A stretch of 64,000 bases of DNA from Hymenobacter convexus. Lineage in GTDB: Bacteria; Bacteroidota; Bacteroidia; Cytophagales; Hymenobacteraceae. Location of the stretch: the NCBI RefSeq assembly GCF_030580955.1, contig NZ_JAUQON010000003.1, positions 124,001 through 188,000 of the forward strand, written 5' to 3'. The translations under genes and the position numbers were made by a program. Shown in pieces: positions 1 through 63,120 of the stretch; position 1 is the stretch's first letter; each line of letters begins with the position of its first letter. Under the pieces are notes generated by a model. That model saw only the letters and a program-made list of their open reading frames with translations. It was not told where the DNA came from and did no database searches.

Positions 1-1
1 T

Positions 2-628
2 GCGCAGCTCACCCAAATCGGGCTGCAGCTGCTTTTGGAACGCGTGGCTCCCCCGCTCACCGAATCCTGGTTTTCGCGGGTGGAAGCAAGGGAAAACGCC
101 TATAGCTGGCGCTCGCTCTCGCCCGACGGCGCGTTGGACCACCAGACCGTGTGGCAATTTGCCAACTACGCGGGCTCGGCGGCCTTCGCCGTCCGGCAGC
201 ACGTGGCGCAACTGGCGCCGCTGTTTGAGCAGAGCACCATCACCAACCACCTCTGGACCGCCGTCTGGCGCGTGCTCCGGCAAGTGCGCACGGCCCTGCG
301 ACTGTGCGAGGCCGTCGGCCGGCGGTCAGCCCCAAGCTCTGCCGCCCCCGAAGACCCCAAGAGCCTGGCCTTGATGCTGCAGCACCTGCTGGCCCATCAC
401 CAGCAGCTCCTGAAGGCCGTGGCGGCCATGATTGAGCGCAGCTTGCAAACGGAACCGCGAAGCACACACTGGGCCCCGCTCATCCGGTCGAACAAAAAAA
501 CCGGGCAGGAGTCGCCGCTTATGCAAGAGCTGTTGGCGTGCATGGCGGTGCACGGCACGCTGGCGTCGTACGGGTATGGTCCGGAAGCCAGCCAAAGCTT
601 GGGCAAGCTAATCGCCACGCTGCCTTAA
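2..628 (+). CDS. Hypothetical protein, 5' end outside window
   Basis: The reading frame is open from the first bases of the window, so the true start lies upstream and only the last 208 codons are visible. An internal TTG at 35 is a possible but unlikely start. The visible part is rich in Leu, Ala, His and Gln, looks largely alpha-helical, and shows no signal peptide or membrane segment. I recognise no family. It has the base and codon use of the chromosomal flank. Reality as a coding region is supported by length and composition only. Confidence 0.5.
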   Translation, partial: AQLTQIGLQLLLERVAPPLTESWFSRVEARENAYSWRSLSPDGALDHQTVWQFANYAGSAAFAVRQHVAQLAPLFEQSTITNHLWTAVWRVLRQVRTALRLCEAVGRRSAPSSAAPEDPKSLALMLQHLLAHHQQLLKAVAAMIERSLQTEPRSTHWAPLIRSNKKTGQESPLMQELLACMAVHGTLASYGYGPEASQSLGKLIATLP

Positions 629-694
629 TTAATTGGTCTTCAAGTGCCCAAGCATCCTTTGCTCCCACGGGTCCCTTTTGTTCGTATGTAAGGC

Positions 695-961
695 ATGCCT
701 GTTCCCGAACTCGTGCTCGCGCCCACCGGTCGTCGGTTAACTTTTTCAGCCCATCCGGGCGAGCGTGCCCACATTTTCCGGCGCGTGGGCGGGGCTGCCG
801 GCCCCTGGCACCGGGTGGCCGTCAACGCCCGCTGCCCCTTCCTCGACGAGGACGTGCTGGCTCCCGGCACGGCGGTGGAGTACTACGTGCACGTGCAGTC
901 CGACGCCGCTGCGGAGGGGTCGCTTCAGAACCGCAGCCACTTGCTGAGCATTACCACCTGA
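695..961 (+). CDS. Small hypothetical protein, possible beta-sandwich
   Basis: An ATG-started frame of 88 codons, 66 bases after the preceding gene. The protein has alternating hydrophobic strands and a late segment AVEYYVHVQSDAA that resembles the end of fibronectin III or Ig-like beta-sandwich domains. There is no signal peptide. It lies alone between two unrelated hypotheticals. A longer overlapping frame in another phase exists here, but its only plausible start is further down at 1099. The domain resemblance is weak. Confidence 0.45.
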   Translation: MPVPELVLAPTGRRLTFSAHPGERAHIFRRVGGAAGPWHRVAVNARCPFLDEDVLAPGTAVEYYVHVQSDAAAEGSLQNRSHLLSITT

Positions 962-7550: not shown

Positions 7551-7590
7551 AAAAACAAAATCCCTCCCCGCAATGCGCAGGGAGGGTTTT
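7551..7590 (-). terminator. Former host terminator of tRNA-Met
   Basis: CCCTCCC pairs with GGGAGGG and is followed on the minus strand by a T-rich tract (A-rich at 7551-7560). It abuts the left attachment core and resembles the hairpin at 46619-46653, so it is probably the original chromosomal terminator of the tRNA gene, displaced by integration. Confidence 0.6.
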
Positions 7591-7605
7591 CGTGGGCCCA
7601 ACTGG
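7587..7605. other. Prophage attachment site attL (19-bp core)
   Basis: TTTTCGTGGGCCCAACTGG is repeated exactly at 46650-46668, where it covers the 3' end of a tRNA-Met gene. The integrase gene begins 28 bases to the right. The two copies bound a complete phage gene set, which supports attL/attR assignment. Confidence 0.85.
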
Positions 7606-7632: not shown

Positions 7633-8964
7633 TCAGCGGTAAGAGACCCGCCGAATCAATACCCCGCCCCCGCCTTGGCTTGGCACGTCCTGGTGTACGA
7701 TACCGGCCAAAGTGGGTGCATTTTTTTCCGTTGCACCCACTGCACCCAGCACCCTCTCCCAGGCCTTGAGCAGCGCCGGGCCGTAGCGTTCGAGGGCATC
7801 GTGTCCATAAACACCGGCGTGGCCCAGCGCCTTCTCCTTCAGGTTGGAATCCCCGCCCGACCCGAGCATGACCAGGTCGGCGCCGGTGTGGCGGGCCGTG
7901 TGGGTAGTAATGACTTTATGGAGAGGCAGCACCTCTTCGGTGGCCTCGCCACGCACGTACTGCACCCGCACGAAGGACCGGGTGAGCTGGGCCACGCGGG
8001 CCAGCTGCTTCATGCGGCGGTTCCGCTCCTGCTGGCTGGGCACGGGCGGGCGCCCCGCCCACCCGTGCCAGATGGCGGCCGCGGCGGGCGGGAGCGGCAC
8101 GCGCACCTCGTCACCGGTTTTGGCCTGGTGAAACGTGAGCACCGGCGTGGCCGGATAGCCCGGCAAATCGACGGGGGCGACGTGGTGGGGGCGCAGGGCC
8201 CGCAGGTCGGAGTCGCGCAGCAGGAGCAGCGTTTGGAACGTGAACAGGGCCGCTTCCTCGCGCAACTCGTCATCGGTCAATTCCAGGGCCATGAGCGCGC
8301 GCAGCTCGGCCTGCTGCAGGGCGGGGGCCCGCCCGTAGCGGGTTTTGATTTTCAGCCAAGCGGGCAACACCTTGCCGCCCAGCCGGAAGCACTCGCGCAG
8401 GAATTTGATGTGCTTGCTCACGGTGCTGTCGACCAGGCCCAACGCGGCCAGGTAGGCCAGGTAGTCGAGCAAGTCCTTGCGGGTGAGGGCCAGCACCGGC
8501 CAGGCCGGGTGGTAGGCTTCGAGGTGGCCCACCACTTGCTTGTAGCGGCGGGCGCTGTTGTAGGTCTGGCCGGGGTTTTCGGCCTGCCACAGCGCGTAAA
8601 AGTCGCGGGGTGTGGTGGCCGTGGGCGCCTCGGCCGCGGCGCGCTTGCCGGCGGGCTTCTTGCCGAGGGCCACGCGGGCGGCGGCCACGAGTTCCGTTTC
8701 GGTCACGGGCCGGCTCTCGGCCGAGGCCAGCGTGAAGACCGTGTTGACGGCGGTTTCCACTTTGGCCAGTTCGTTGTTGAGGCGCGTGGCGTCGGGGTCC
8801 TTGCGCATGACCACCAGCCGGGCCTCGGGGCTGAAGTGGGCCGGCAAGCAACTCACGCCGGTGGCCAGCTTGGCCCGCTGGCCGTCCCAGGCTACGTCAA
8901 GCACCACGCGGCAGCGGCCGTCGGCATCGGGGCGGGACAGGACCTGGCGGTAGGTGAGCTTCAT
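7633..8964 (-). CDS. int: Tyrosine recombinase, phage integrase
   Basis: A 443-residue site-specific recombinase that would integrate and excise the prophage. It has an N-terminal arm-binding region (MKLTYRQVLSRPDADGRCRV onward, the Bacteroidetes Arm-DNA-bind type), a helical core-binding domain and a C-terminal catalytic domain. Catalytic residues read as Arg250 (LLLRDSDL), Lys282 (HQAKTG), His355 and Arg358 (HTARHT), His382 (ALGHAG) and nucleophile Tyr394 (LERYGP). Full length. It is transcribed towards attL, 28 bases from the core, the usual placement for a tRNA-targeting phage. Repeated GGGTGCA-type words lie inside its 3' end (7714-7747). Confidence 0.93.
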   Translation of the reverse strand: MKLTYRQVLSRPDADGRCRVVLDVAWDGQRAKLATGVSCLPAHFSPEARLVVMRKDPDATRLNNELAKVETAVNTVFTLASAESRPVTETELVAAARVALGKKPAGKRAAAEAPTATTPRDFYALWQAENPGQTYNSARRYKQVVGHLEAYHPAWPVLALTRKDLLDYLAYLAALGLVDSTVSKHIKFLRECFRLGGKVLPAWLKIKTRYGRAPALQQAELRALMALELTDDELREEAALFTFQTLLLLRDSDLRALRPHHVAPVDLPGYPATPVLTFHQAKTGDEVRVPLPPAAAAIWHGWAGRPPVPSQQERNRRMKQLARVAQLTRSFVRVQYVRGEATEEVLPLHKVITTHTARHTGADLVMLGSGGDSNLKEKALGHAGVYGHDALERYGPALLKAWERVLGAVGATEKNAPTLAGIVHQDVPSQGGGGVLIRRVSYR

Positions 8965-9300: not shown

Positions 9301-11223
9301 TTATCGCTGCAACAACACGCTACGCTTGACTACTTGACCGCCGTTGTGCATCACCACATGGTAAAGCCCATCAGGTAAGTTGGAGGTCATAATACGCAAT
9401 GTTCCACTGAATGCTTTAGCGGACCCAACATTGTTGCCGTGATTATCAAAAAGGCTTGCTTCCATTTCCTCCGGCGCGGTAGTTTTCACCACCTGTTTCG
9501 AGTTGGGTGGTAAGGCCGATTTGGTCAAGGTATTGCGCACTTCAAGGTAGTTGTCTGCAACTCCAATCGTTGGGTTAAAGGCTGTCCGGTAAGGTGAGTA
9601 AGGGTCACAGTAAGTGCTGCCATCAGGGTTCGTCCAGGGAATGAGAGTACGGGGCGCCTCTGGCAGGAATTGCCCGGTTGGGCAGTCAATTGTAGTCACT
9701 GTATAGTCAACTTCATCAAGTCCCACACCGGCGTCTACATAAGGGACTTGCGTCGTGAATGATAACGGGGTCTTTGGGTTGCCATTAAAATAGTTGGTGA
9801 CTGTCCAATAGTAGGGCGGAAATAGATTCTGGCCGATTACGTTGATGCGCACCGTATTACCGGGGCAGAGCTTTTGTGCCCCATTTAAATCAAGGTCTGT
9901 GTCAATTGAGCCCGTACCTAGTGTGGTAACTAACTTGGTGACTGTCGGCTGGGTGGGCAGATTTATAAATGTAGCCGTGATGTACCCTTGCCCAGGTGTT
10001 GCCGAGGCCGCACTGGTCGTAAATGTCGGACCAGTCCAATTCTGCACGGTAAAGTAGCCAGTTGGTGATGTCGTCCAAACCACGGTTTGTGATGGGTCGG
10101 CCGTGTACGTATTGCTAAAGCTAGGGCAGATGACATCAGGGCCAATAATCTTTGGGCATGCACCGCTTACCGTGACCGTGACGGTTGATGTAGATGTGCT
10201 TCCATCAGGCAGTGATACAGTTAACGTGTAAGTGGTCGTTTTCTTAGGACGAACATCTAATTGAAAAGATGTGTAACTAACTGTTAAGGGCATGCCGGGG
10301 GCAGACCAAGCGTATTTAGCTCCCGGAACAGGGCACCCCTCCCCTAGGGTTACTAGTTCTGAGCATGATACAGACGAAGAGTTTCCAGCTGTGGGAATTT
10401 TATACAGTTCTACTTCGTCGATGTGATAACGGGCTCTACCAACTGAAGAAGTGGAAAGGTCAAAATTACCAATAGTCACATACCATGGCTGTGGGGAATC
10501 AGGCAATGCGGGTGATGAGGGCGTTGGTATAGTAATTTTTCCATTCACTTTCGTCCAACTGGAATTAGGTAACACGCCAAGACTCTGCATAGTAGTGCCT
10601 GGAGAGTTAGAAAAATTACGTAGCCCCCCAGTAGCAGTGGACAGGCACATGCCTAGGCGTGTCGCAATGCCAGCCGGTACGTGATAAGCTTGAAAACTTG
10701 CGTAGTACTCCCCCCTGGTTAACATCAGTGGCGCAGTCGGTGAGATAAGGTCAAAAGTATAACCACTCCCGCTCGGTGAACTGCCATTTGAGGCAGTAAT
10801 GATACTAATTGCACCGTTGTTCAAGGCCGAATTATTATTCAATGGAGGAAACCCCGGGCCAAGGTATTGGTATGGATTTGTTGTTGTGATGAGAGCACTG
10901 TTAGAATTGGGATTGGTTAGGCCGCTAGGCGCGTTGGTTGCGAAATAGGTTGGCTTTCCGTTGGTAATGCCATTGCCATCACCACTGAATGACCACCCGG
11001 CAACTTCGTCGTGAGCGGAAAAAGTAGAGCGCACATTATCTGGGAATCCGGACAGTGCTCCCCCATTTTGATTTTGCTGCTCAAAAGAAGGATTGGGAAT
11101 AAGATTACACGGATTAATAGCTTGCCCAACGGCTCGGTCTGGTTGCAGTGTGCCTAAGACAAAGAGCAACAGGAAATGGAGCGGAGCCATATAAAAGGCT
11201 TCGCGAAGTGTACTAGTTCTCAT
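9301..11223 (-). CDS. Prophage-borne secreted protein with T9SS sorting tail
   Basis: A 640-residue exported protein with a signal peptide (an alternative start is the internal Met in YMAPLHFLLLFVLG; cleavage near VGQA). The N-terminal half resembles the 'NLIPNPSFEQ...' carbohydrate-binding-like or jelly-roll modules found in Bacteroidetes surface proteins. The middle holds PKD/Ig-like repeats (KKTTTYTLTVSLPDGSTST). The last 55 residues (EMEASLFDNHGNNVGSAKAF to VVKRSVLLQR) fit a type A T9SS C-terminal sorting domain, so the protein is probably released or anchored at the cell surface. GC is clearly lower than in the chromosome. It sits on the lysogeny side next to integrase with its own terminator, the position of a lysogenic-conversion gene. 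Confidence 0.8.
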   Translation of the reverse strand: MRTSTLREAFYMAPLHFLLLFVLGTLQPDRAVGQAINPCNLIPNPSFEQQNQNGGALSGFPDNVRSTFSAHDEVAGWSFSGDGNGITNGKPTYFATNAPSGLTNPNSNSALITTTNPYQYLGPGFPPLNNNSALNNGAISIITASNGSSPSGSGYTFDLISPTAPLMLTRGEYYASFQAYHVPAGIATRLGMCLSTATGGLRNFSNSPGTTMQSLGVLPNSSWTKVNGKITIPTPSSPALPDSPQPWYVTIGNFDLSTSSVGRARYHIDEVELYKIPTAGNSSSVSCSELVTLGEGCPVPGAKYAWSAPGMPLTVSYTSFQLDVRPKKTTTYTLTVSLPDGSTSTSTVTVTVSGACPKIIGPDVICPSFSNTYTADPSQTVVWTTSPTGYFTVQNWTGPTFTTSAASATPGQGYITATFINLPTQPTVTKLVTTLGTGSIDTDLDLNGAQKLCPGNTVRINVIGQNLFPPYYWTVTNYFNGNPKTPLSFTTQVPYVDAGVGLDEVDYTVTTIDCPTGQFLPEAPRTLIPWTNPDGSTYCDPYSPYRTAFNPTIGVADNYLEVRNTLTKSALPPNSKQVVKTTAPEEMEASLFDNHGNNVGSAKAFSGTLRIMTSNLPDGLYHVVMHNGGQVVKRSVLLQR

Positions 11224-11552: not shown

Positions 11553-12038
11553 CTAGACCTGGGGGATTACTTGTGCTGCCGGTTCAGGTGCAGGCGGCGC
11601 TGGTGGAGTAGAGGCGGCTTTTTTGGCTTGCTCCCGGTCATACCTTATTTGCGCCAATGCCATTTTCATGGCTCGGTCTACCTCTGCCTTTGAATAACTA
11701 TCGCGGTCATAATCTGGCCACGCTGGCTGCGTGATACGCTTTATCAATGGTTCAACGATGTTGAGCGTCACACCAGGAGAAACGGCCTTCTGCATTTCCT
11801 CGAATACGCTGTCTCGCTCGGCATAGCCAGCGAATACGTACTCCATTTCCCGCCGGCTGGTCAGCAACAGCTGGATGGTGTAAAGCACCGTCACCGCGGG
11901 GTCGTAATCCTCGTAGCGAAGCTGCCCTTCTCGAGTGGTGCGGTCGATGTTCTCGGTGTAGATGGCTACCACCTCGGCCATGTTGAGCAATTGGAGGCGC
12001 TCGTTACGGCGCGTATAGAAGAAGGAGGAACCAAGCAT
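11553..12038 (-). CDS. Hypothetical protein, paralogue of 12194-12577
   Basis: From ATG 12038, a 161-residue protein. It begins MLGSSFFYTRRNERLQLLN and shares with the next gene upstream the landmarks GSSF-YT, LLN-A, RYE-YDP, an L-rich strand, ER/ED-R and a closing helix with Y(S/T)-AE. The C terminus is a low-complexity Ala/Pro tail (STPPAPPAPEPAAQ). Cytoplasmic, family not recognised. The two genes are clearly a tandem duplication that has diverged. Confidence 0.6.
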   Translation of the reverse strand: MLGSSFFYTRRNERLQLLNMAEVVAIYTENIDRTTREGQLRYEDYDPAVTVLYTIQLLLTSRREMEYVFAGYAERDSVFEEMQKAVSPGVTLNIVEPLIKRITQPAWPDYDRDSYSKAEVDRAMKMALAQIRYDREQAKKAASTPPAPPAPEPAAQVIPQV

Positions 12039-12098
12039 AAGGAGAGGAAAGCAGCACAACGGCCGCTGTGGTCGTTTCGTGTGAAAGGTAGGAAAAGG

Positions 12099-12193: not shown

Positions 12194-12577
12194 CTAGTCA
12201 CGAACTACAGACATTGCGTGCTCTATTTCTGCGGCAGTGTAGCCGTTGTAGACTGTCTTAGGCCCCTCCGGCTTACGCGGCACGTCGGGCGATGTATCGA
12301 TGATGGTCGCGGCCGGTGCTAAGGCGGCTAAAATCCCGTCGTACATCTTGTCACGGTCTTCAGCTGTGGCGTACAGGTATTCGCTGTACAAACCGTTGGC
12401 CATGACGATGGTGAGCAGATAAATTTTCCCTTCTAACGGGTCATACTCTTCATACCGCCGCCTAGCCGGTTCGGAATCCACGTCAACATCATTGACATGA
12501 ACTGACGCGATTTGAGCAGTATTCAGTAAAGTACGACGCTTGCCGCAGACGGTGTAGATGAAGGAGGAGCCGACCAT
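12194..12577 (-). CDS. Hypothetical protein, paralogue of 11553-12038
   Basis: From ATG 12577, a 127-residue protein starting MVGSSFIYTVCGKRRTLLN, with the YEEYDPLEGKIYLL and AEDRDKMYDGILAAL segments that line up with its neighbour and a terminal helix YTAAEIEHAMSVV. A longer frame to 12913 runs antisense-like through the next gene and is rejected. Family not recognised. It ends at its own terminator (12099). Confidence 0.6.
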   Translation of the reverse strand: MVGSSFIYTVCGKRRTLLNTAQIASVHVNDVDVDSEPARRRYEEYDPLEGKIYLLTIVMANGLYSEYLYATAEDRDKMYDGILAALAPAATIIDTSPDVPRKPEGPKTVYNGYTAAEIEHAMSVVRD

Positions 12578-12630
12578 AGGAGGAGAAAGCAGCGCAACGG
12601 CTAGGGGTGGGATTTCGTGTGTTGAGCCCG

Positions 12631-12903
12631 CTACTCCGCGTCCGGCACCCAGTCCGGCAGCTTCACGAACATGGCGTAGTCCGGCAGGCGGTTGTCCTCC
12701 CCTCCTGCTTCGAAGGCAAAGCAAAACTCCACTTCGTTCTTGTCCACGTCGTAGTTCACCTCGACAAAGAAACCGGCGGGCACTTGGTAGAGCATCACCG
12801 CTTGGTGCACGTCGTCCCAGCGCCGGGCAATGTAGGTGCCTTGGTTGTAGACGTAGGCTAGCTGCACCTCGTCGGAAAGGTGGTTGAAGTTCTCGATGGT
12901 CAT
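12631..12903 (-). CDS. Small acidic hypothetical protein (90 aa)
   Basis: ATG 12903 starts MTIENFNHLSDEVQLAYVYN, followed by a compact alternating-strand protein (YIARRWDDVHQAVMLYQV, GFFVEVNYDVDKNEVEFCFA) that looks like a small alpha/beta domain. Bacteroidetes proteins with the 'YVYNQGTYIARR' type of start are common small hypotheticals. No function known to me. It lies 16 bases downstream of the secreted protein at 12920 and may be cotranscribed with it. Confidence 0.6.
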   Translation of the reverse strand: MTIENFNHLSDEVQLAYVYNQGTYIARRWDDVHQAVMLYQVPAGFFVEVNYDVDKNEVEFCFAFEAGGEDNRLPDYAMFVKLPDWVPDAE

Positions 12904-12919
12904 CACTGGGCAAGGTAGG

Positions 12920-13971: not shown

Positions 13972-14072
13972 AATATCTCGACACTGTGCACCATCATCAT
14001 CACCGGCGTTACTTTGCATGATGTCATACGCTTTGCTTGAACCACAAGACGTGGCAGCATTATTTTTCAAAG

Positions 14073-15149
14073 ATGCAGGTAGAACAGAAAGGACTTTTTA
14101 AATATTCAGGAATTGATATATTTTCTGGAGCCGGAGGCATGAGCTGTGGTGCCATGGCAGCAGGGGTTTCTATCGACTTAGCGGTTGAGTTTGATAAACA
14201 CTCCGCTAATACATTCAAAAAAAACCATCCGAATACACTTGTAATACAGGATGATATAAGCAATATCAATCCAAAAAAGTATATCACTACGCCTCCATTC
14301 GTAGTCTTTGGTGGACCACCATGCCAAGGGTTTTCTAAATCCAATACAAAAACTAGAGATATAGGTAATGACAATAATAACCTTTTCAGAGAATTTATCA
14401 GATTTGTGGATGAGCTACAGCCTCAATGGTTCGTCTTTGAAAATGTAGAGGGCTTTCAGTCCTTTAATAAGGGAAAGACTCTGAAGTCATTAGAACTAAC
14501 CTTTAAGGGCCTTAAATATACTACTAGTCATAAAGTCCTTTGTGCATCCTCCTTTGGAGTCCCACAGCGCCGGAAAAGATTTTTTATGGTGGGTAATAGA
14601 GATGGAATAAAATTTGAATTTCCTAAAGAAACCAGCACTGAAATCACTGTAAAAGACGCCTTTCATGACCTGCCGAAGCTTATAAATGGTCAGCAAGACT
14701 CTGCATTACCATATATAAGCAAGCCGCAAAGCCAATATGCAAAACTCATGCGCGGTGCAACAAAGGAATCAACACAAAATCTAGTATCTCGAAACAGGGA
14801 TTACGTTGTAGAGAGATATGCTCATATACCTCAAGGAGGAAACTGGCGGTCTATTCCGAATCACATGCTTGACAACTACGCCAACTTGGACAATTGTCAT
14901 GGGAGCATCTACCGTCGGTTAAACCTTGATGAGCCATCGGTAATCATTTCCAACTATAGAAAAAATATGCTTATACACCCAGAGCAAGACAGAGGTTTAT
15001 CTGTACGTGAAGCAGCGCGTCTGCAAAGCTTTCCTGACAGCTATGTCTTCGAAGGAAATCTGGTATCAATACAGCAGCAAATAGGAAATGCGGTACCGCC
15101 CCTGCTAGCAAAAGAGATTTTCTCCCAACTTATATCTGCATCCAAATAA
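14073..15149 (+). CDS. C5-cytosine DNA methyltransferase (Dcm family)
   Basis: Transfers methyl groups from S-adenosylmethionine to C5 of cytosine in DNA. From ATG 14073 (an in-frame TTG at 14037 is possible) the protein is 358 residues, normal for the family. Motif I is IDIFSGAGGMSCG (residues 14-26), motif IV GGPPCQGFS with catalytic Cys84, motif VI FENVEGF, motif VIII QRRKRFFMVG, and motifs IX-X RLQSFPDSYVF and QIGNAVPPLLAKEI. The target-recognition region (about 200-290) is distinctive, so specificity cannot be read. GC is about 40%, far below the phage structural genes. It is the first gene of a tight operon with 15151, 17316 and 17926. No restriction endonuclease is adjacent. Confidence 0.93.
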   Translation: MQVEQKGLFKYSGIDIFSGAGGMSCGAMAAGVSIDLAVEFDKHSANTFKKNHPNTLVIQDDISNINPKKYITTPPFVVFGGPPCQGFSKSNTKTRDIGNDNNNLFREFIRFVDELQPQWFVFENVEGFQSFNKGKTLKSLELTFKGLKYTTSHKVLCASSFGVPQRRKRFFMVGNRDGIKFEFPKETSTEITVKDAFHDLPKLINGQQDSALPYISKPQSQYAKLMRGATKESTQNLVSRNRDYVVERYAHIPQGGNWRSIPNHMLDNYANLDNCHGSIYRRLNLDEPSVIISNYRKNMLIHPEQDRGLSVREAARLQSFPDSYVFEGNLVSIQQQIGNAVPPLLAKEIFSQLISASK

Positions 15150-15150
15150 A

Positions 15151-17313
15151 ATGGCGAAGCAAAGTTTAAGGTGGAGATTCGACGTTAATACATTTCGGTT
15201 ATTGGGAAGAGAATTAATAACTGACCGTGTAACAGCAATATTTGAACTAGTAAAAAATTGCTATGATGCTAATGCCACCAAAGTGGACATCGATTTTATT
15301 GACGTAAGCCACGGCGTTGGGACGGGCCAAATAATAATATCTGACAACGGCCAAGGAATGACTTTCGAGGACGTTCGCGATAAATGGATGGTTGTAGGCA
15401 CAAACAGCAAGCGAGAGCGTACATCATCCGGCTCACCCTTCTTTCGCAGAATGGTGGGCGAGAAGGGCGTTGGCCGATTTGCCGTTGAAAAACTTGGGAG
15501 CAAGTTATTACTACAATCTAAAAAGGCTTCACAGCCGACACAGATAAACGTAGAAATAATCTGGGATACTTACGAGGAGTTATCTGCGCAATACAATCTT
15601 TTTAGCCAAGAGGCTACCCTTCCTACATTAAGAAAAAAGGCAGAGAAAGCGGCTATAAAACCCAAAAAGAAATATTTCACAGAGATTGATAACCGCTACT
15701 GGCACGAGGTCAAAAACAACGATTCTCAATATACAACCCTCGTAATAAGCGGCTTGCGCGAAACATGGACTGGCAATGATATTTCACGCGTCTACAAAGA
15801 ACTATCTAAGCTTATATCTCCCCTAACGGAGAAAAAAGAGGATTTCACTATAAATATACGAGCAAAGGAGTTTGAGGAATATAAAAAATATGAGGAAGTA
15901 AAGAATAAAGGGATTTCTGAATCATCTATAAATTTTTCCCTTAAATATAATTTAGAAAACAGAACACAAGAAGTAATAAAATTTAACGGAGAAAACCTTG
16001 TTGTTTCTTCGGTGCCAATAAAAAAGATGGGCCCGGTTGAAATGGCTCTATATTATCTCGACACTGAGGCTAAACGGACTTACAAGAATCTAACTTCGTC
16101 TCCACCTGACGGAATCAAGATTTATCGCGACAATTTAATCACTACGCCATTTGCAGAGTTTGAAAGCCAAGACGATAAAAAACGTGATGTTATAGGCATT
16201 GACAAAAGAAAGCATAACGCTTTCTTTGATAGAGTAGGCTCAAGAGATTTAATTGGTTATGTAGCTATCACGAAAGCTCAAAACCCGGAGATAATTGATG
16301 CAACGAATCGTCAAGATTTTGTCGAAAACGAGGAGTACAGGGCATTAAAACAGTTCATTATTGACCAAGTAGTAGAGTTAGAGAAGCTATTAAAGTACCA
16401 GCGCGAAGCCTCAAAACAAATAACCACCACTGGTTTGCAGAGTGCAAGGGTGGAGTTGGATGCTTTTACGCAGGTCGTTCAGCAGACAATTAGAGAGACG
16501 CCTCAGCTTACGCAGCAGTTGAACCCCTTGCTTCAAGTGGCAAAGCGTGTACGGGTGGACTTCGCTAAAGGAATAAAGGCTTACGAGCGTCTTGAGAAGG
16601 AAAAGGTTCGCCAAGAGAACATCTTCATGAGCCTAATGTCCTTGCAGGAATACGCAGCTCAGATTGCTCACGTTGTAAGGACGTCTCTGGCAAGAGTATT
16701 GCACCTAGCTGAATTTTTCAAGGACTTCTTTCCCAACGAGGAATACAACGACATTTTTGCCACTTACTCTAAAAACATCTATGATGAAATGATGACCCTC
16801 GATAGGGCAATTGAGTACATGTTGAGCTATGCTCTTGCAGATACTGACAAGGTCGCTATAGACATCAAGGATACTATTGAAGGTTTGCTATTCAGAAACT
16901 ATAAAGATATTTTAGCACAAAAAGACATTAGGACCATAGTAGAAATTAACAAGTCAGTGATTATAAATACAAATGAGAGAGTCATAATTGACATTTTCGA
17001 AAATTTAATCACTAACTCTATCAAGGCCCTTAATGAAATAAAAGGCGAAAAAATAATTAAGTGCTCTGGTTCTATTGATGACCAAGGCGTAAACATTCTT
17101 TTTTCTGACAATGGAAAAGGAATAGATGTGGATGATTACGAACGCATTTTTAATGTTTACTATACAACCAGCGCTGAGCAGGGCGGAGCTGGTATTGGTT
17201 TGTTTGTTGCCAAGACTCGTGTAGAATCTCTTAAGGGAACAATCAATGTTGTTAAACCAGAATTTCACCCACAGGGGGCTACATTCAAAATAACTTTTCC
17301 ATTTAATAAATAA
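15151..17313 (+). CDS. Dual GHKL ATPase: MORC/Hsp90-like module fused to histidine-kinase-like module
   Basis: A 720-residue protein with two GHKL ATPase units. The first (residues 1-about 200) is MORC/MutL/Hsp90-like: N-box FELVKN (Glu32, Asn36), DNGQGM (65-70), GEKGVGRFA lid (103-111). A middle region (about 200-430) resembles an S5-like transducer, followed by coiled-coil helices. From about 490 it looks like a histidine kinase: H-box IAHVVRTSLARV with candidate phospho-His507, N-box FENLITN (about 616-622), DNGKG (653-657) and GGAGIGLFVAK. It starts one base after the methyltransferase stop and ends two bases before a receiver gene, so signal relay to that receiver is likely. paraMORC-type ATPases are known from restriction-modification neighbourhoods; the histidine-kinase half is the unusual part. 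No membrane segments, so it senses something cytoplasmic. Confidence 0.85.
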   Translation: MAKQSLRWRFDVNTFRLLGRELITDRVTAIFELVKNCYDANATKVDIDFIDVSHGVGTGQIIISDNGQGMTFEDVRDKWMVVGTNSKRERTSSGSPFFRRMVGEKGVGRFAVEKLGSKLLLQSKKASQPTQINVEIIWDTYEELSAQYNLFSQEATLPTLRKKAEKAAIKPKKKYFTEIDNRYWHEVKNNDSQYTTLVISGLRETWTGNDISRVYKELSKLISPLTEKKEDFTINIRAKEFEEYKKYEEVKNKGISESSINFSLKYNLENRTQEVIKFNGENLVVSSVPIKKMGPVEMALYYLDTEAKRTYKNLTSSPPDGIKIYRDNLITTPFAEFESQDDKKRDVIGIDKRKHNAFFDRVGSRDLIGYVAITKAQNPEIIDATNRQDFVENEEYRALKQFIIDQVVELEKLLKYQREASKQITTTGLQSARVELDAFTQVVQQTIRETPQLTQQLNPLLQVAKRVRVDFAKGIKAYERLEKEKVRQENIFMSLMSLQEYAAQIAHVVRTSLARVLHLAEFFKDFFPNEEYNDIFATYSKNIYDEMMTLDRAIEYMLSYALADTDKVAIDIKDTIEGLLFRNYKDILAQKDIRTIVEINKSVIINTNERVIIDIFENLITNSIKALNEIKGEKIIKCSGSIDDQGVNILFSDNGKGIDVDDYERIFNVYYTTSAEQGGAGIGLFVAKTRVESLKGTINVVKPEFHPQGATFKITFPFNK

Positions 17314-17315
17314 TT

Positions 17316-17933
17316 ATGCCTAAGTCGCCCATTGAAGTAGTAGTAATCGATGATTTAATGGAAGCAACAGCTCCGTTAATAATAAGACTCAGAATGTTTT
17401 TTGAGAGTGTGATGCTGCGCAAAACGCCTGGGGAAGGGATAGAATACGTATTAGAAAATCTAGGAAAAAAAAGAATGGTAGTAGTTCTAGACCTGGAGTT
17501 TTTTTCTAACAAACACGCTGGGCATCAAATATTTGAAACGATTCGTAAAAAATCTCATATTCTGCCATTCGTTATTTTCAGTGCAACAGACCCTTCTAGT
17601 CAGGGCCAAGACTTGACTGATTTTATTAATGAGCAAGCTTTCGCCTTTCACAAAAAAGGCACGCCAGCGAGTGAAGTCGTAGATACCGTTAAGCGCGCTG
17701 CTGATTCTCTATCTGCTCGCGTAGATGCGGCCATTGAAAGTTGGATTGAAAGCCATCCACCGGAAACTAGGGAACAGCCTTATATCACTACTGCTAATGG
17801 TGAGACAATTTCTCTTGAAAATATTCTTCAAGAGATAAGATTACAAACAGAAAAAGGGAAGGAATTTGAGAGAAGGTTCCTAATGTTGACAGTAGATTTA
17901 GTAATGCGCAATATTGAAAATATCAATGGTTAA
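17316..17933 (+). CDS. Receiver-domain response regulator-like protein
   Basis: A 205-residue protein whose first 120 residues form a CheY-like receiver: acidic pair Asp12-Asp13 (VVVIDDLM), phospho-acceptor Asp59 (VVVLDLEFF), conserved Ser89 (VIFSATD) and Lys113 (FAFHKKG). The rest (about 125-205) is helical, ends RRFLMLTVDLVMRNIENING, and is not a recognised DNA-binding output domain. It probably receives phosphate from the kinase-like half of the preceding protein and passes the signal by protein contact, most simply to the protease-like protein encoded next, whose start overlaps its stop. Confidence 0.85.
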   Translation: MPKSPIEVVVIDDLMEATAPLIIRLRMFFESVMLRKTPGEGIEYVLENLGKKRMVVVLDLEFFSNKHAGHQIFETIRKKSHILPFVIFSATDPSSQGQDLTDFINEQAFAFHKKGTPASEVVDTVKRAADSLSARVDAAIESWIESHPPETREQPYITTANGETISLENILQEIRLQTEKGKEFERRFLMLTVDLVMRNIENING

Positions 17934-18558
17934 TATAATAATAGCCGTAGACGAACAGGATGCTGATTTAGGCTCCTATTTCCAAATGTGTGCTGCTGAC
18001 ATCAGTTTTGAATTACAAAGCGATGCACACAGCCAAACATACACATACAATATAATACGGACCGATGGTTTAACACAAGAAAATATAATAAAGGCAATTT
18101 CTTTAGTCCAAGACAAAAACTACATATTCATTGCTTATGCGCATGGCAATGAAAATTGTCTTGGAGTTCAAGGTGCCGATATTTTTGTTGATTTAGACGC
18201 AGGAGTAGGCCATTTTTGCAAATCTATTTTCTACACCTTCTCTTGTAAAACGGGCATAAATTTGGGACCCGGGCTAATTGATGCCGGCTGCCATGTGTTC
18301 TGGGGGTATATCAAAAACGCGGAGATTGTGCGGCCATTCGAGTCACTCTTTTTAGAGTGCGCGAACCACGGTTTCAAACGCCTACTCATTGGGGATACAG
18401 TCCAAGAAGCATTTGATTATATGATTAAAAAATACAATGAATATATATCGGCCATATATACACGAAATCTAATGGCAGGTCAGGCACTTATGAATAATAG
18501 AGACGCTCTAAGATTCTTTGGTAACAAGGATTTAAGGCTTGCTGACATTCTTGACTAG
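17926..18558 (+). CDS. Caspase/CHAT-like cysteine protease, putative effector
   Basis: A 210-residue protein. I start at ATG 17926, which overlaps the upstream stop (ATGGTTAA) and suggests translational coupling; an in-frame TTG at 17914 is an alternative. It reads as a caspase-fold (clan CD) peptidase: strand YIFIAYAHGNEN with catalytic-type His73, then strand SIFYTFSCKTG with Cys107, then GLIDAGCHVFWGYI and a helix pair ending DTVQEAFDYM, the order seen in CHAT and gingipain-like domains. It has no other domain, signal peptide or membrane helix. As the last gene of the methyltransferase-sensor-receiver operon, it is the natural effector, perhaps cleaving host proteins when triggered. The fold call is by motif and strand order only. 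Confidence 0.65.
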   Translation: MVNIIIAVDEQDADLGSYFQMCAADISFELQSDAHSQTYTYNIIRTDGLTQENIIKAISLVQDKNYIFIAYAHGNENCLGVQGADIFVDLDAGVGHFCKSIFYTFSCKTGINLGPGLIDAGCHVFWGYIKNAEIVRPFESLFLECANHGFKRLLIGDTVQEAFDYMIKKYNEYISAIYTRNLMAGQALMNNRDALRFFGNKDLRLADILD

Positions 18559-18567
18559 CAAAGAAGC

Positions 18568-19065
18568 TCATATACTTATAATTTCAACTATTTCCTCAAG
18601 AGATACCCATCTTAAAATCTCTTGACCGTCATGCTCTTCTCTTGCCATGAACTGCATCTTACGGTTCGGGCGTGGCTCTAGGCCGAGTCTATCACTCTTA
18701 TAGTTAGCGGCAGCACGGACGCTATAAAATTGGGGCGCTGTGTCATTTCCCTCAGCAACAGGCGTAGAGCGTGTCTCTGTGCCTGTTGTTGGGTTTGAAT
18801 GTAAGGACATTTTTTTTGGTGCTTCCGCTGATTTCTGCATTTCGCCCTCACCGAAAAGCAACCATTCTGCATTTATGTCCGGGTACGACCTCAACATTTT
18901 CTGAAGCACAGGAAAGCTAGGCCCCCCTTTTTTACCCCCTATAAGGTCCGCCACGGCTTGGCCGGATATGCCAGCAGCGCGTCCTAACTCGGATTTGTTG
19001 CCTTGAGCACGTGTCTCAAGCAGAAATTTAATCCGTTCAGCAACAGGTTGTTCACCTTTTCGCAT
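18568..19065 (-). CDS. CI-like phage repressor, XRE family
   Basis: A 165-residue protein with an N-terminal XRE helix-turn-helix (NKSELGRAAGISGQAVADLI, about residues 23-42) and the INAEWLLFGEGEM sequence that ends the HTH unit in many Bacteroidetes regulators. The C-terminal part is short and shows no S24/LexA-type Ser-Lys peptidase, so induction by RecA self-cleavage is not evident. It is divergent from the early operon, with inverted repeats at 19084-19119 as probable operators. Its stop faces the protease gene's stop across only 9 bases. Confidence 0.85.
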   Translation of the reverse strand: MRKGEQPVAERIKFLLETRAQGNKSELGRAAGISGQAVADLIGGKKGGPSFPVLQKMLRSYPDINAEWLLFGEGEMQKSAEAPKKMSLHSNPTTGTETRSTPVAEGNDTAPQFYSVRAAANYKSDRLGLEPRPNRKMQFMAREEHDGQEILRWVSLEEIVEIISI

Positions 19066-29363: not shown

Positions 29364-30722
29364 GTGGGCCTTTTCGACTTCCTCAACCGCAAATCCAAAC
29401 CGGCCCCCGTGACCGGCGACCCCAACAACGTTGGCGGCGTGGGCACCTTCGTGGGCGCTGGCGGGCAGGGCGAAGCCGACCCGGCCTTTGCGGATTTCCT
29501 GGCCAGCGGCGGCGGCACCTTCGCCGCGCCCGGCACCAGCGGCGCGGTGGCCGTGAACGAGCACACGGCCGTGACGCTTTCGGCCGTCTGGGGCTGCGTG
29601 CGCGTGATAGCCGAGTCGGTGGCCCAGCTGCCGCTACTGGTGCTCGACAAAAGCACCCACGGTAAAAACCGGCTGGCCACCGAACACCCGGCCTACCTGG
29701 TGCTGACGCTGGAGCCCAACCCGCGCCAGTCGGCGTTCAATTTCTGGGAGCTGATGGTGGCCACCTGCTGCCTGTGGGGCAATGCCTACGCCATCATTGA
29801 GCGCAACAACTTGTACGAAGCCGTGGGCCTGCACTGGGTGCACCCGCGCAACGTGAGCGTGTACGAGTACGGGGGCGAGCTCTGGTACTGGGTGGCCGGC
29901 GAGAAGGCCCCGCGCCCCGCTTCAGAAATCCTGCACCTAGCCGGCCTGGGCTTCAACGGCGTGACCGGCCGCTCGGTGCTGAGCGTGATGCGCGAAAACT
30001 TCGCCCTGGGCCTGTCGGCCCAACGCTACGGCGTCAATTTCTACGAGAACGGCACCCACATTGACGGCGTGCTGGAATCGGCCAACAAGATTGACGACAA
30101 GCCCGGCCCCAGCGGCACCTCGGTGCTGGAGCGGCTGCGGGCGCAGTTTGCCGACCGGTATTCCGGGCTCAGCAACTCTCACAAACCGCTGATTCTGGAG
30201 TACGGCCTGCAATACAAGCGCATTGGCATGCCCCCGGCCGACGCCCAGTTCATCGAAACCCGGAAGATTCAAGCCGAGGAAATCGCCCGGGCCTTCCGCG
30301 TGCCGCAGCATAAGATTGGCATGCTGGAGCGCAGCACCAACAACAACATTGAGCACCAGGGCCTGGAGTTCGTGACCGACTGCCTGGGGCCCTGGCTGCG
30401 GCGCATTGAGCAGGAATGCCGCCGCAAGCTGCTGCGCGACGACCAGAAGCGCGCCTACCGCATCCACTTCGACCTCGACGGCTTGCTGCGCGGCGATTTC
30501 GCCAGCCGCGCCACCTTCTACAAAACCCTGTGGGGCGTGGGCCTGATGAGCGCCAACGACATTGCCGACATGGAGGACCGCGACCATGTGGAAGGCGGCG
30601 ATGAGCGGTTCGTGCCGCTGAACATGGTGCCTACCAGTCTCATCAAGGAGGTGCTGCTCAAGCCCGCCGCCAAAGCCCCGAAAACGCCAAAATCTACCGA
30701 AAAAGACCCTTCAACCGCATGA
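29364..30722 (+). CDS. Phage portal protein, HK97 type
   Basis: A 452-residue portal subunit. GTG start 29364 gives MGLFDFLNRKSKPAPV, the common N terminus of HK97-type portals. Landmarks: AVNEHTAVTLSAVWGCVRVI, ESVAQLPLLVLDK, NLYEAVGLHWVHPRNVSVYE, IEHQGLEFVTDCLGPWLRRI and DFASRATFYKTLWGVG. Full length. It forms the dodecameric channel through which TerL packages DNA. Its start overlaps no other gene; a hairpin sits directly upstream. The stop overlaps the protease start. Confidence 0.9.
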   Translation: MGLFDFLNRKSKPAPVTGDPNNVGGVGTFVGAGGQGEADPAFADFLASGGGTFAAPGTSGAVAVNEHTAVTLSAVWGCVRVIAESVAQLPLLVLDKSTHGKNRLATEHPAYLVLTLEPNPRQSAFNFWELMVATCCLWGNAYAIIERNNLYEAVGLHWVHPRNVSVYEYGGELWYWVAGEKAPRPASEILHLAGLGFNGVTGRSVLSVMRENFALGLSAQRYGVNFYENGTHIDGVLESANKIDDKPGPSGTSVLERLRAQFADRYSGLSNSHKPLILEYGLQYKRIGMPPADAQFIETRKIQAEEIARAFRVPQHKIGMLERSTNNNIEHQGLEFVTDCLGPWLRRIEQECRRKLLRDDQKRAYRIHFDLDGLLRGDFASRATFYKTLWGVGLMSANDIADMEDRDHVEGGDERFVPLNMVPTSLIKEVLLKPAAKAPKTPKSTEKDPSTA

Positions 30723-31366
30723 AAAAGCCCGCTAAAACCATTGAAAAGCGCTTTTTGAAAGGCGAAAAAGCCGGCATTCACGTCGAATACCGGGCCGAGG
30801 GCGAAGCCCAAACGCCGGTGGCCTTCGTCGGCAAGGCCATCGTGTGCAACTCGCGCAGCCACAACCTGGGCGGTTTTGTGGAGATAATCGACCCCAAGGC
30901 CCTCGACAACGCCGATTTGAGCGACGTGGTGGGCCTGTTCAACCACGACCGCAGCATGGTACTGGGCCGCACCACGGCCGGCACGCTCACCCTGACCCGC
31001 GACAAAGACGGCGGCCTGAGCTACCGCATTGCCTACGACCCCACCGACCCCGACCACCAGCGCGTGATGGCCAAAATCCTGCGCGGCGACGTGGTGGGCT
31101 CCTCGTTTGCCTTCCGCGTGGCCCCCAGCGGCGACAGCTGGGACAAGGAGGAAACCGACACGACCAGCATCTACGTGCGCACGGTCACCAAAATCAGCCG
31201 CGTCTCGGACGTGTGCCCCGTCACCGTGCCGGCCTACGCCACCAGCACGGCCGCCAAGCGCAGCCTCGACAGCCTGCGGGCCGAGCGGGCCACGCCCCCG
31301 CCGGCCGGGCCCAGCCTGGCCCAGCGCCGCCGCCAGCTGGCCCTACTCGAAACCGCCCCGCTTTAA
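30719..31366 (+). CDS. HK97-family prohead protease
   Basis: A 215-residue head maturation protease. Landmarks are VGLFNHDRSMVLGRT (His76 as catalytic His), RGDVVGSSFAFRV (Ser128 or Ser129 as nucleophile) and VCPVTVPAYATSTA near the C terminus. It should cut the delta region off the capsid protein encoded next. The start overlaps the portal stop. Normal length for the family. Confidence 0.88.
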   Translation: MKKPAKTIEKRFLKGEKAGIHVEYRAEGEAQTPVAFVGKAIVCNSRSHNLGGFVEIIDPKALDNADLSDVVGLFNHDRSMVLGRTTAGTLTLTRDKDGGLSYRIAYDPTDPDHQRVMAKILRGDVVGSSFAFRVAPSGDSWDKEETDTTSIYVRTVTKISRVSDVCPVTVPAYATSTAAKRSLDSLRAERATPPPAGPSLAQRRRQLALLETAPL

Positions 31367-31402: not shown

Positions 31403-32704
31403 ATGAAAAAGACCCTCAAGCAATTGATGGAAGAGCGCGCCGCCAAGCTCAAAGCCAATCAGGCTTTGCTCACGGCCGCCGACACCGAGCAGCGCGACCT
31501 GAGCGACGCGGAGGCCACGACCTTCGACAACACCACGGCCGAAATCCGGGCGCTGGATGAGCAAATCGTTCGCGCCAAAGCCATCGAAGAGCAGCGCGCC
31601 ATCACCGCTGGCCTGGGTGCGCCCGTTGCCGGCGGTCCGTCGGAACGCGAACACCGCGATTTCAGCGGCTACTCGCTGACCCGCGCCCTGAACGCGCTGG
31701 CCAACAACCGCCCCCTCGACGGCTTGGAGGCCGAAATGCACCAGGAGGCCCAGCGCCAGCTGCGCGAGGCCGGGGCGCAGGGCGGCGGCAACCTGGCCAT
31801 TCCGCAGATGGTGCTGCAAAGCAGCCTCCAGCAGCGCAGCATGAGCGCCACCGGCCAGACCACCACCCCCGGCGACCTGGGCGGGCAGGCCATTCAGACC
31901 AACGTGGGCGGCTTCATCGAGCGCCTGCGCGCCAAGCTGGTGCTGGCCGGCATGGGCACCACGCAGCTCGACGGGCTGGTGGGCAACCTGACCTTCCCCA
32001 AGTTCAACGCCAACGACAACGCGGCCGAGAAGAGCGAAAACGCCACGGCCAACGAGTCGAGCCCCACGGTGAGCTCGGTGAGCATGGCCCCGCGCCGGCT
32101 GCCGGTGTTCACCACCGTGAGCCGCCAGCTGCTGCTGCAAACGTCGGCCTCGGTGGACGCGATGCTGCAGGACGACCTGGCGTTCCAGCTGGCGCAGGCC
32201 ATGGACCAGTCGGGCATCCTCAAAATCCTGAACACGGCCGGCATTGGCTCGGTGGTAGGCGGCGCCAACGGTGCCGCTCCGACGTGGAAGAACATCGTGG
32301 ACCTGGAAACGGCCGTGTCGGCCCTCAACGCCGACATGGGCAATCTGGGCTACCTGACCAACGTGAAGGTGCGCGGCATCTTGAAGCAGACGGCCAAGAT
32401 GGGCAACACCATCGCCCAGCCGATTTGGGAAGGCGACAACACCCTCAACGGTTACCGCACCGGCGTAAGCACGCAGGTCCCCGGCACGCTCAACAAAGGC
32501 ACGGCCAACGGCCTGTGCTCGGCCGTCATCTTCGGCAACTTCCGCGACCTGGTGCAAGGCCAGTGGGGCGGCATGGAGTTCCTGGTGAACCCCTACGCCG
32601 GCGACAAGGAGGGCCTGATTCGCATCAACGCGTGGACGTTCTTCGACGACATGGTGCGCCGCGCCGAGTCGTTCGCGGCCATGAAAGACGCCCTGACGGC
32701 GTAA
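31403..32704 (+). CDS. Major capsid protein, HK97 fold
   Basis: A 433-residue capsid subunit. The first 80 or so residues (MKKTLKQLMEERAAKLKANQ onward) are a coiled-coil delta scaffolding region removed by the protease. The HK97 fold body follows, with GFIERLRAKLVLAGMGTTQL, a central E-loop and P-domain (RQLLLQTSASVDAMLQDDLA) and a C-terminal RINAWTFFDDMVRRAESFAA. Full length. The CT-rich leader and strong hairpin on either side suggest high, controlled expression. Confidence 0.92.
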   Translation: MKKTLKQLMEERAAKLKANQALLTAADTEQRDLSDAEATTFDNTTAEIRALDEQIVRAKAIEEQRAITAGLGAPVAGGPSEREHRDFSGYSLTRALNALANNRPLDGLEAEMHQEAQRQLREAGAQGGGNLAIPQMVLQSSLQQRSMSATGQTTTPGDLGGQAIQTNVGGFIERLRAKLVLAGMGTTQLDGLVGNLTFPKFNANDNAAEKSENATANESSPTVSSVSMAPRRLPVFTTVSRQLLLQTSASVDAMLQDDLAFQLAQAMDQSGILKILNTAGIGSVVGGANGAAPTWKNIVDLETAVSALNADMGNLGYLTNVKVRGILKQTAKMGNTIAQPIWEGDNTLNGYRTGVSTQVPGTLNKGTANGLCSAVIFGNFRDLVQGQWGGMEFLVNPYAGDKEGLIRINAWTFFDDMVRRAESFAAMKDALTA

Positions 32705-46618: not shown

Positions 46619-46653
46619 AAAAACCCTCTCTGCAGTGCGCAAAGAGGGTTTTT
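46619..46653 (-). terminator. Phage-supplied terminator of tRNA-Met
   Basis: CCCTCT pairs with AGAGGG with A and T tracts on either side. It lies on the phage side of the attR core directly behind the tRNA 3' end, so the prophage provides a replacement terminator similar to the host one at 7551-7590. Confidence 0.7.
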
Positions 46654-46668
46654 CGTGGGCCCAACTGG
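46650..46668. other. Prophage attachment site attR (19-bp core)
   Basis: TTTTCGTGGGCCCAACTGG, identical to 7587-7605. It covers the 3' acceptor-stem strand and the discriminator of the tRNA, so integration regenerates an intact tRNA gene. Confidence 0.85.
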
Positions 46669-46729
46669 AATCGAACCAGTGACCTACTGATTATGAGTCA
46701 GTTGCTCTAACCGATTGAGCTATAGGCCC
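46656..46729 (-). tRNA. tRNA-Met (anticodon CAT)
   Basis: Read on the minus strand: acceptor GGGCCTA pairs with TGGGCCC; D arm AGCTC...; anticodon stem ACTGA/TCAGT around loop CTCATAA (anticodon CAT); T arm with GTTCGATTC. CCA is not encoded. It could instead be tRNA-Ile2 after lysidine modification, since both carry CAT; elongator Met is the more usual reading for this sequence type. It is the phage integration site. Confidence 0.9.
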
Positions 46730-62960: not shown

Positions 62961-63120
62961 AAAAAAAGAGAGGAAGGGAAAACATGCAGAGAGTCCGCTT
63001 GCGCGGCGGAAATCAACAGGCTGTCGGAGGGTGTAAAACCAGGCGCTGGCCCGGCTAAACATGGCGGCAGCAGGCAGAAGAACAAGAGCGAAAGGCCGGG
63101 CTACGGGCCGCCCAGGCGGC

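Follow-up and report, generated by a model that had tools for sequence, protein, structure and literature searches.

A four-gene cassette joining a DNA methyltransferase, a dual-GHKL sensor kinase, a receiver and a putative clan CD protease in a probable Hymenobacter prophage

A 64,000-nucleotide stretch of Hymenobacter convexus DNA (contig NZ_JAUQON010000003.1, positions 124,001 to 188,000; hereafter the window, to which all coordinates refer) carries a cassette of four genes, in the order 5-methylcytosine (m5C) DNA methyltransferase, dual-GHKL sensor kinase, stand-alone receiver and clan CD cysteine protease. The domains of these proteins, their invariant catalytic residues, the gene order, the protease fold, the variety of the fourth gene among relatives and the location in a prophage were all obtained computationally. 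We read the cassette as a prophage-borne, methylation-licensed, two-component abortive-infection module, in short "restriction by protease", and place the probability of this reading at about one half. The pairing of domains within the kinase is known from the literature, and the cassette with a protease as its output is the part worth pursuing; judged by the titles and abstract openings of an incomplete list of papers, no description of a caspase-like protease paired with a dual-GHKL kinase was found. Such a pairing could be a new route by which bacteria kill infected cells.

Two GHKL modules in one kinase

The kinase contains two distinct GHKL modules, and the key residues of both are invariant. 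Residues 28-136 match HATPase_c_3 (Pfam, E 9.5e-21) and residues 609-719 match HATPase_c (E 1.1e-23), while the match of residues 498-563 to HisKA (E 8.6e-4, 19.8 bits) falls under the Pfam cut-off of 26.9. Domain scans were run on chosen subsets of the relatives described below (68 of 77 kinases, 55 of 78 receivers, 27 of 31 distant kinases and 44 of 46 distant downstream genes). Both ATPase domains were recovered in all 68 kinases scanned, the order being HATPase_c_3, DHp, HATPase_c, and HisKA reached E <= 0.01 in just 12 of them. In the alignment of 77 kinase rows, E32, N36, D65, G67 and G69 of the first module and H507, N618, N622, G679, G681 and G683 of the second are present without exception. 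The count for H507 is 80/84 when other GHKL open reading frames (ORFs) stay in the alignment and 77/77 after a length filter.

The AlphaFold2 model of the kinase (mean predicted local distance difference test score, pLDDT, 79.1; predicted template modelling score, pTM, 0.60) shows the combined GHKL and S5 fold at the N-terminal end, where residues 15-417 align with the MORC3 ATPase (Z 21.9, root-mean-square deviation (rmsd) 3.3, 290 residues aligned). The MORC-type catalytic Glu32 and the S5 lysine Lys352, whose catalytic roles are known from the GHL family, are likewise retained in 77/77 rows. At the C-terminal end, residues 496-719 align with HK853 (Z 20.0, 219 residues) at an rmsd of 11.2, presumably because the placement of DHp and CA differs, and the CA domain alone (565-720) aligns with ThkA at an rmsd of 2.1 (Z 20.0, 147 residues). 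Profile searches with the 77-row alignment connected the C-terminal half to the kinase core of ZraS (E 2.6e-24) and the N-terminal half, weakly in both cases, to PMS1 (E 3.3e-6) and HtpG (E 7.7e-5). The hallmarks of a sensor histidine kinase, namely the DHp histidine and the N and G boxes of the CA domain, are thus found together with a MORC-like ATPase module.

The first-pass annotation of this gene, made from the letters alone, had proposed two different GHKL modules in one polypeptide, which the profile matches, the structure prediction and the invariant catalytic residues bear out. The motifs it quoted (E32..N36, DNGQGM, GEKGVGRFA and H507) lie where it placed them; the histidine-kinase fold of the C-terminal half, the absence of which it had named as a refutation, appears in the predicted structure through the HK853 and ThkA matches; and the neighbouring receiver with Asp59 that it pointed to exists. 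What did not stand was its view that the pairing is unknown or rare. Bellieny-Rabelo et al. (2021; PMC8011034) had already collected 222 HEF_HK proteins, 174 of which carry HATPase_c_3, HEF_HK and HATPase_c; their paper links them to receiver genes and C5-methylases and relates them to paraMORCs. Novelty of the domain pairing is thereby ruled out. The caspase-like fourth gene, the probable output, is absent from the first-pass annotation.

A caspase-like fold in the fourth protein

At the thresholds used, the 210-residue fourth protein matched nothing in Pfam, NCBIfam or PHROG; a sequence search of the PDB returned nothing credible, and PADLOC gave a single weak match (E 0.02). Its structural model (pLDDT 96.6) forms a single clan CD fold across all 210 residues. 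Foldseek matched this model to SAVED-CHAT (E 1.5e-4), separase and caspases, and structure alignment gave SAVED-CHAT a Z of 19.0 (178 residues aligned, rmsd 2.4), followed by gingipain RgpB (17.7), legumain (14.7) and separase (14.6). Across 77 protease rows with a mean column identity of 31%, H73, G74, C107 and G127 are invariant, and Peptidase_C25 was detected at E <= 0.1 in just 3 of the 77. Because of the fold matches and the invariant His73-Gly74 and Cys107, we call the fourth gene product a clan CD cysteine protease of the caspase/CHAT/gingipain/separase fold, its activity being putative.

Methyltransferase and receiver

The methyltransferase exceeds the cut-off of TIGR00675 (dcm) twofold (203 bits against 100.65) and matches DNMT1 and the HaeIII and HhaI methylases in the PDB. 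Its Cys96 and the Glu135-Asn136-Val137 motif are conserved in 95/95 rows. Translation may in fact begin a few codons downstream of the TTG assigned as its start.

The receiver carries a C-terminal extension of about 75 residues. Although the window's own copy has no Pfam match to Response_reg or to PF19192, Response_reg was found at E <= 0.1 in 52 of the 55 receiver rows scanned (best E 9.5e-11), and the receiver profile matched receivers in the PDB with a best E of 4.9e-9. D13, the phosphoacceptor candidate D59 and a serine or threonine at position 89 occur in all 78 rows; at position 12, 63 rows have D or E and 15 have H. No recognised DNA-binding output domain was found with Pfam in the window copy and the 55 rows.

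Conservation and distribution of the cassette

Among GTDB species genomes, 275 relatives of the kinase were detected, of which 80 were kept; 79 of these loci have a kinase ORF, L127 being the one without. Methyltransferase, receiver and protease each lie within four ORFs of the kinase in 78 of the 79 loci, the loci without the respective partner being L050, L114 and L115. The order methyltransferase, kinase, receiver, protease, at any length, holds in 76/79 loci, and all four full-length genes stand in their expected places in 73/80, the window included (outside this set are L050, L101, L102, L103, L114, L115 and L120). Since the query was built from protease-linked kinases, these counts are conditional on the clade and gauge the tightness of the cassette, not the frequency of proteases among dual-GHKL kinases. 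The genes are closely packed: receiver and protease ORFs overlap in 57/72 loci, and the methyltransferase ORF either overlaps the kinase ORF or is at most 20 bases away from it in 75/76 (longest-ORF coordinates). Short rows were dropped before residues were counted, namely the proteases of L101 and L103 (75 and 95 residues), the receiver of L120 (83 residues), the GHKL ORFs of L104 and L116 (404 and 546 residues) and the methyltransferase fragments of L106 and L092. In L104 and L116 the dropped GHKL-profile ORF is a second one, which precedes the dual-GHKL kinase by a few genes.

The hosts are mostly Bacteroidota, joined by two Spirochaetes, one Kapaibacterium and one Desulfatirhabdium metagenome-assembled genome. 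The cassette is rare and patchy, as the search from the protease side, run over 395 genomes from the phylum, found a match in only 2, one being the window's own and the other weak and partial; a kinase match at E <= 1e-40 was found in 14 of the 395. Three more full-length kinases with identical gene order were recovered from 200 genomes of the same family. One of these three genomes is probably that of L121 and hence counted twice. In a viral collection, a single-protein query and the protease alignment returned no close relatives, and the kinase alignment returned deep relatives only, at 27 loci.

Exchange of the fourth gene

Among the deep relatives of the kinase the fourth gene varies. It encodes an HNH nuclease in L044, L128, L130 and L138, a protein of the metallo-beta-lactamase (MBL) fold in L039 and, by its HG...C motif, a caspase-like protein in L038, L153, L177 and L179, with a profile match for L179 only (E 1.8e-7). 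Many other deep loci have a longer downstream gene, one of which matches Response_reg_2. This variation is suggestive of a chassis, made up of sensor and relay, to which different outputs can be coupled. An effector tree, built with FastTree only and with long branches meeting, gave three changes for the caspase-like class and one for HNH; as its label 'longRR' covers mixed downstream genes, the tree supports only that fourth genes differ. The viral contigs L129-L154 hold several dual-GHKL kinases with downstream genes of about 276-613 residues, often near methyltransferases, and it is possible that these longer genes form a reservoir of other outputs. The upstream 435-residue gene of L128 was considered as an adenine methyltransferase on account of an NPPY motif, yet gave no PDB match and is not assigned as one here.

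Proposed mechanism and alternatives

We infer each functional step of the scheme, that is, the methylation cue, sensing, phosphotransfer, protease activation, proteolysis and defence. The methyltransferase would mark the cell's own DNA, and the MORC-like GHKL and S5 half of the kinase would close, as a dimer clamp powered by ATP, around DNA that is unmarked or foreign in some other way. Closure would be transmitted through the long helix to the DHp/CA core, His507 would become phosphorylated, and the phosphate would pass to Asp59 of the receiver. The phosphorylated receiver would then switch on the clan CD protease, which would cut host or phage proteins so that growth halts before phage release. 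Clamp-like, ATP-driven closure, which the first-pass annotation had also suggested, is plausible in view of the MORC3-like fold and the conservation of Glu32 and Lys352. The further-reaching proposal of a new class of immune system, proteolytic restriction, in which methylation is read by the MORC-type clamp and passed by a His-Asp relay to a caspase-like protease, so that unmethylated DNA would set off programmed proteolysis and not DNA cleavage, with HNH, MBL and protease outputs exchangeable, is held more tentatively, at somewhat less than even odds.

If correct, the scheme would join restriction-modification (R-M) self-marking, MORC-type clamps and caspase-like suicide, usually separate themes, by way of a two-component phosphorelay. 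Prokaryotic MORC relatives would gain a testable signalling role, and the cassette would be a case of a protease replacing the restriction nuclease. It also hints at the purpose of the published dual-GHKL kinases, because an output gene can now be named.

In favour of the scheme are the constant gene order, the invariant catalytic residues amid otherwise low identity, the protease fold, the N-terminal likeness of the kinase to BbrUII/HgiDII, the R-M-like neighbours, the exchange of the fourth gene, the mobile context and the patchy distribution.

Several findings weigh against the scheme. No domain for DNA binding or site reading was recognised. The residue after His507 is acidic in 0 of the 80 rows with H507, unlike in canonical HisKA, and the beta5 lysine of the receiver is variable (K inside a 7-residue stretch in 40/78 rows, K or R in 61/78, the alignment being loose there); for both reasons phosphotransfer from kinase to receiver can only be inferred, and it may be weak or unusual. 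Co-variation between kinase segment 101-140 and the methyltransferase target domain over 73 loci gave a rank correlation of 0.80 (partial 0.45) with a permutation p of 0.001, uncorrected for 35 segments, and the kinase half tracked the receiver and protease instead of the target domain. Of seven trees, four separate the two types of target domain by a single change and the others by 2, 3 and 4, and the co-variation peak lies at different places within each type; the co-variation is consequently not taken as independent evidence. No m5C methyltransferase was found adjoining the kinase in the four HNH loci: L128 has the unconfirmed NPPY-motif gene described above, the three ORFs preceding the kinase in L130 and L138 include none, and in L044 the locus is truncated by the contig end. 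This speaks against a universal role of methylation, and licensing by methylation is uncertain for the wider chassis. Finally, the counts cover 80 of the 275 relatives, come from the protease-linked query and ignore relatedness.

The same parts could serve selfish addiction, in which the methyltransferase is diluted once a cell loses the cassette or prophage and the sensor fires the protease, killing that cell. We consider this unlikely, albeit the best placed of the alternatives: the cassette is of foreign composition and lies in a prophage, and R-M systems are described as selfish and able to kill the host when lost (PMC8011034). Addiction is, conversely, not exclusive of defence, and both fit the present evidence. 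A shade less likely again is that the cue for the N-terminal GHKL module is not methylation but a nucleotide pool or some phage protein, the methyltransferase being separate or accessory. A nucleoside triphosphate (NTP) idea is suggested in PMC8011034, and the missing DNA-reading domain, the lack of clear support for methylation sensing from co-variation and the HNH-type deep relatives, where an m5C methyltransferase was not recognised next to the kinase, all fit the cue being something else. Against it stand the MORC-type fold, the likeness to HgiDII and the linkage of methyltransferase and kinase, which are near each other in all but one locus and overlapping or nearly adjoining in all but one of the pairs measured.

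An ordinary regulatory two-component system, which would tune the expression or turnover of the methyltransferase or phage proteins and use the protease as a regulator and not a killer, is improbable. In the window the cassette does adjoin a phage repressor gene, but no output domain for DNA binding was recognised in the receiver and the cassette stays a unit amid differing neighbours. Least probable is a pseudokinase or mainly phosphatase arrangement, with the receiver keeping the protease inactive and clamp closure freeing it without phosphotransfer, which would suit the residue after His507 and the poorly conserved receiver lysine but not the invariance of His507, N618, N622, the G-box glycines and D59.

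Relation to known systems

The restriction-by-protease reading was compared with systems that share parts of the cassette. The HEF_HK / Response_reg_2 elements (PF19191/PF19192; PMC8011034) have the same plan of HATPase_c_3, DHp and HATPase_c, likewise adjoin C5-methylase and receiver genes, and in some loci have Vsr downstream. However, PF19191 matches none of the 68 cassette kinases at E <= 0.01 (it matches 2 of 28 when P0001 and 27 deeper relatives are scanned), the acidic residue after the core histidine is absent here, and the receiver is 205 residues long, compared with a receiver query of 600 residues in that paper. Assignment of the receiver to Response_reg_2 was rejected for this clade, the window copy being unmatched and PF19192 missing among the 25 of 32 families listed for the 55 receivers, where single matches are possible. 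The words 'caspase', 'peptidase', 'protease' and 'phage' each occur 0 times in the text of PMC8011034.

MORC and paraMORC proteins (Iyer et al. 2008, PMC2292703) share the GHKL and S5 module adjoining a DNA methyltransferase gene, but the abstract of that paper gives helicases and endonucleases as partners, whereas the module here is joined to a histidine-kinase core. VcSduA, a Shedu protein with a GHKL N-terminus (PMC12137116), resembles the cassette in that a GHKL ATPase is proposed to control an effector, and its anti-phage activity was tested there; its effector is a fused PD-(D/E)xK nuclease, and the available text mentions neither a kinase nor a receiver in connection with it. The BbrUII/HgiDII restriction enzymes (NF050001) are similar to kinase residues 9-143 (E 9.2e-19), whereas the remainder of the kinase is unmatched and the score is 67.4 bits against a family cut-off of 550. 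With type II R-M systems the cassette has the methyltransferase in common, but in none of the four proteins did Pfam reveal a nuclease domain, and the PADLOC REase_II matches cover the GHKL region only. The cassette thus resembles an R-M system in which sensor kinase, relay protein and caspase-like protease take the place of the DNA-cutting enzyme.

The fold of the fourth protein is common to SAVED-CHAT and other CHAT/caspase-like prokaryotic proteases. Known members are controlled by a cyclic nucleotide or a CRISPR complex; the protease here has a single domain, and we would expect its control by the separate receiver. Detocs comprises three genes, its best-described effector being PNP, which cleaves ATP, and the effector is fused to the receiver. 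The present cassette differs in its methyltransferase and in an effector that is a separate protease with no receiver domain, Response_reg being absent from the 21 Pfam families matched for the fourth protein. In both (for Detocs, see the glossary of PMC11249213), two-component signalling drives an immune effector, a role that is putative for the cassette.

Prophage context and neighbouring genes

Table 1. Features of the cassette and its surroundings (coordinates in the window; residue ranges refer to the kinase)
Feature	Position	Strand	Details
Proposed attL	7587..7605	+	19-base repeat of tRNA-Met 3' end; beside integrase
Phage-type integrase	7633..8964	-	Arm-DNA-bind_5 E 4.9e-5; Phage_int_SAM_5 E 3.0e-4; just inward of proposed left attachment site
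m5C DNA methyltransferase (gene 1)	14037..15149	+	PF00145 E 4.4e-67
Dual-GHKL sensor kinase (gene 2)	15151..17313	+	open frame, 720 residues
Kinase GHKL region	residues ~1-230		
Kinase S5 transducer	residues ~260-417		
Kinase long helices	residues 394-449 and 451-526		
Kinase DHp	residues ~490-563		His507 codon 16669-16671
Kinase CA	residues ~565-720		
Stand-alone receiver-type response regulator (gene 3)	17316..17933	+	205 residues; Asp59 codon 17490-17492
Clan CD (caspase/CHAT-like) cysteine protease, putative (gene 4)	17926..18558	+	210 residues; overlaps gene 3 by 8 bases
Predicted protease dyad, His73	18142-18144		codon
Predicted protease dyad, Cys107	18244-18246		codon
Phage-type repressor	18568..19065	-	adjoins cassette; HTH_26 E 0.0064 (under cut-off); PHROG transcriptional regulator E 3.5e-6
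Head protease	30719-31366		
Major head protein	31403-32704		
Tape-measure protein	36174-38990		
Proposed attR	46650..46668	+	over 3' end of tRNA-Met
tRNA-Met	46655-46729	-	

Most probably the cassette is carried as cargo by a prophage of some 39 kb integrated at tRNA-Met (7587-46668), because an integrase, a repeat of the tRNA and phage genes surround it (Table 1). The repressor, replication, head protease, major head and tape-measure genes lie between the integrase and the tRNA-Met; the catalytic domain of the integrase was unmatched in the domain scan. As repeats of at least 19 bases were also obtained in 11 of 300 random 200-base stretches, the evidence for attL is the adjacency of the integrase together with the tRNA match. 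The G+C content of the cassette is 39.6%, compared with 63.5% around it, and it is below that of the flanks in 68/72 loci, by at least 5 points in 43.

No fifth gene turned out to be common to all the loci, but Vsr-, Xre- and McrB-like neighbours recur. A Vsr-type repair endonuclease lies near the cassette in 11/79 loci (the L060 copy matches PDB 1cw0 at E 7.4e-29), and a small Xre-like gene stands immediately upstream of the methyltransferase in 12/79, the position of controller proteins in type II R-M systems. In the window, no Vsr was found among the four cassette proteins and no Xre-like ORF directly upstream of the methyltransferase. McrB-like genes occur shortly downstream of the cassette in 16/79 loci (e.g. 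L083:10440-12266); with these modification-dependent restriction genes the cassette could possibly form a combined defence against methylated and unmethylated DNA.

Between integrase and cassette, an odd cargo gene of 640 residues (9301-11223, minus strand) has a weak match to a type IX secretion C-terminal sorting domain (E 2.4e-4, 21 bits, cut-off 23) and a likewise weak match to Ig_2. The minus-strand ORFs 11553-12059 and 12194-12913 share, by eye, a similar stretch (GSSFxYT...LLN) and are perhaps a duplicated small prophage gene. An ORF region of 1796 residues at 57672-63062, also on the minus strand, contains internal repeats, one of 245 bases at 82% identity.

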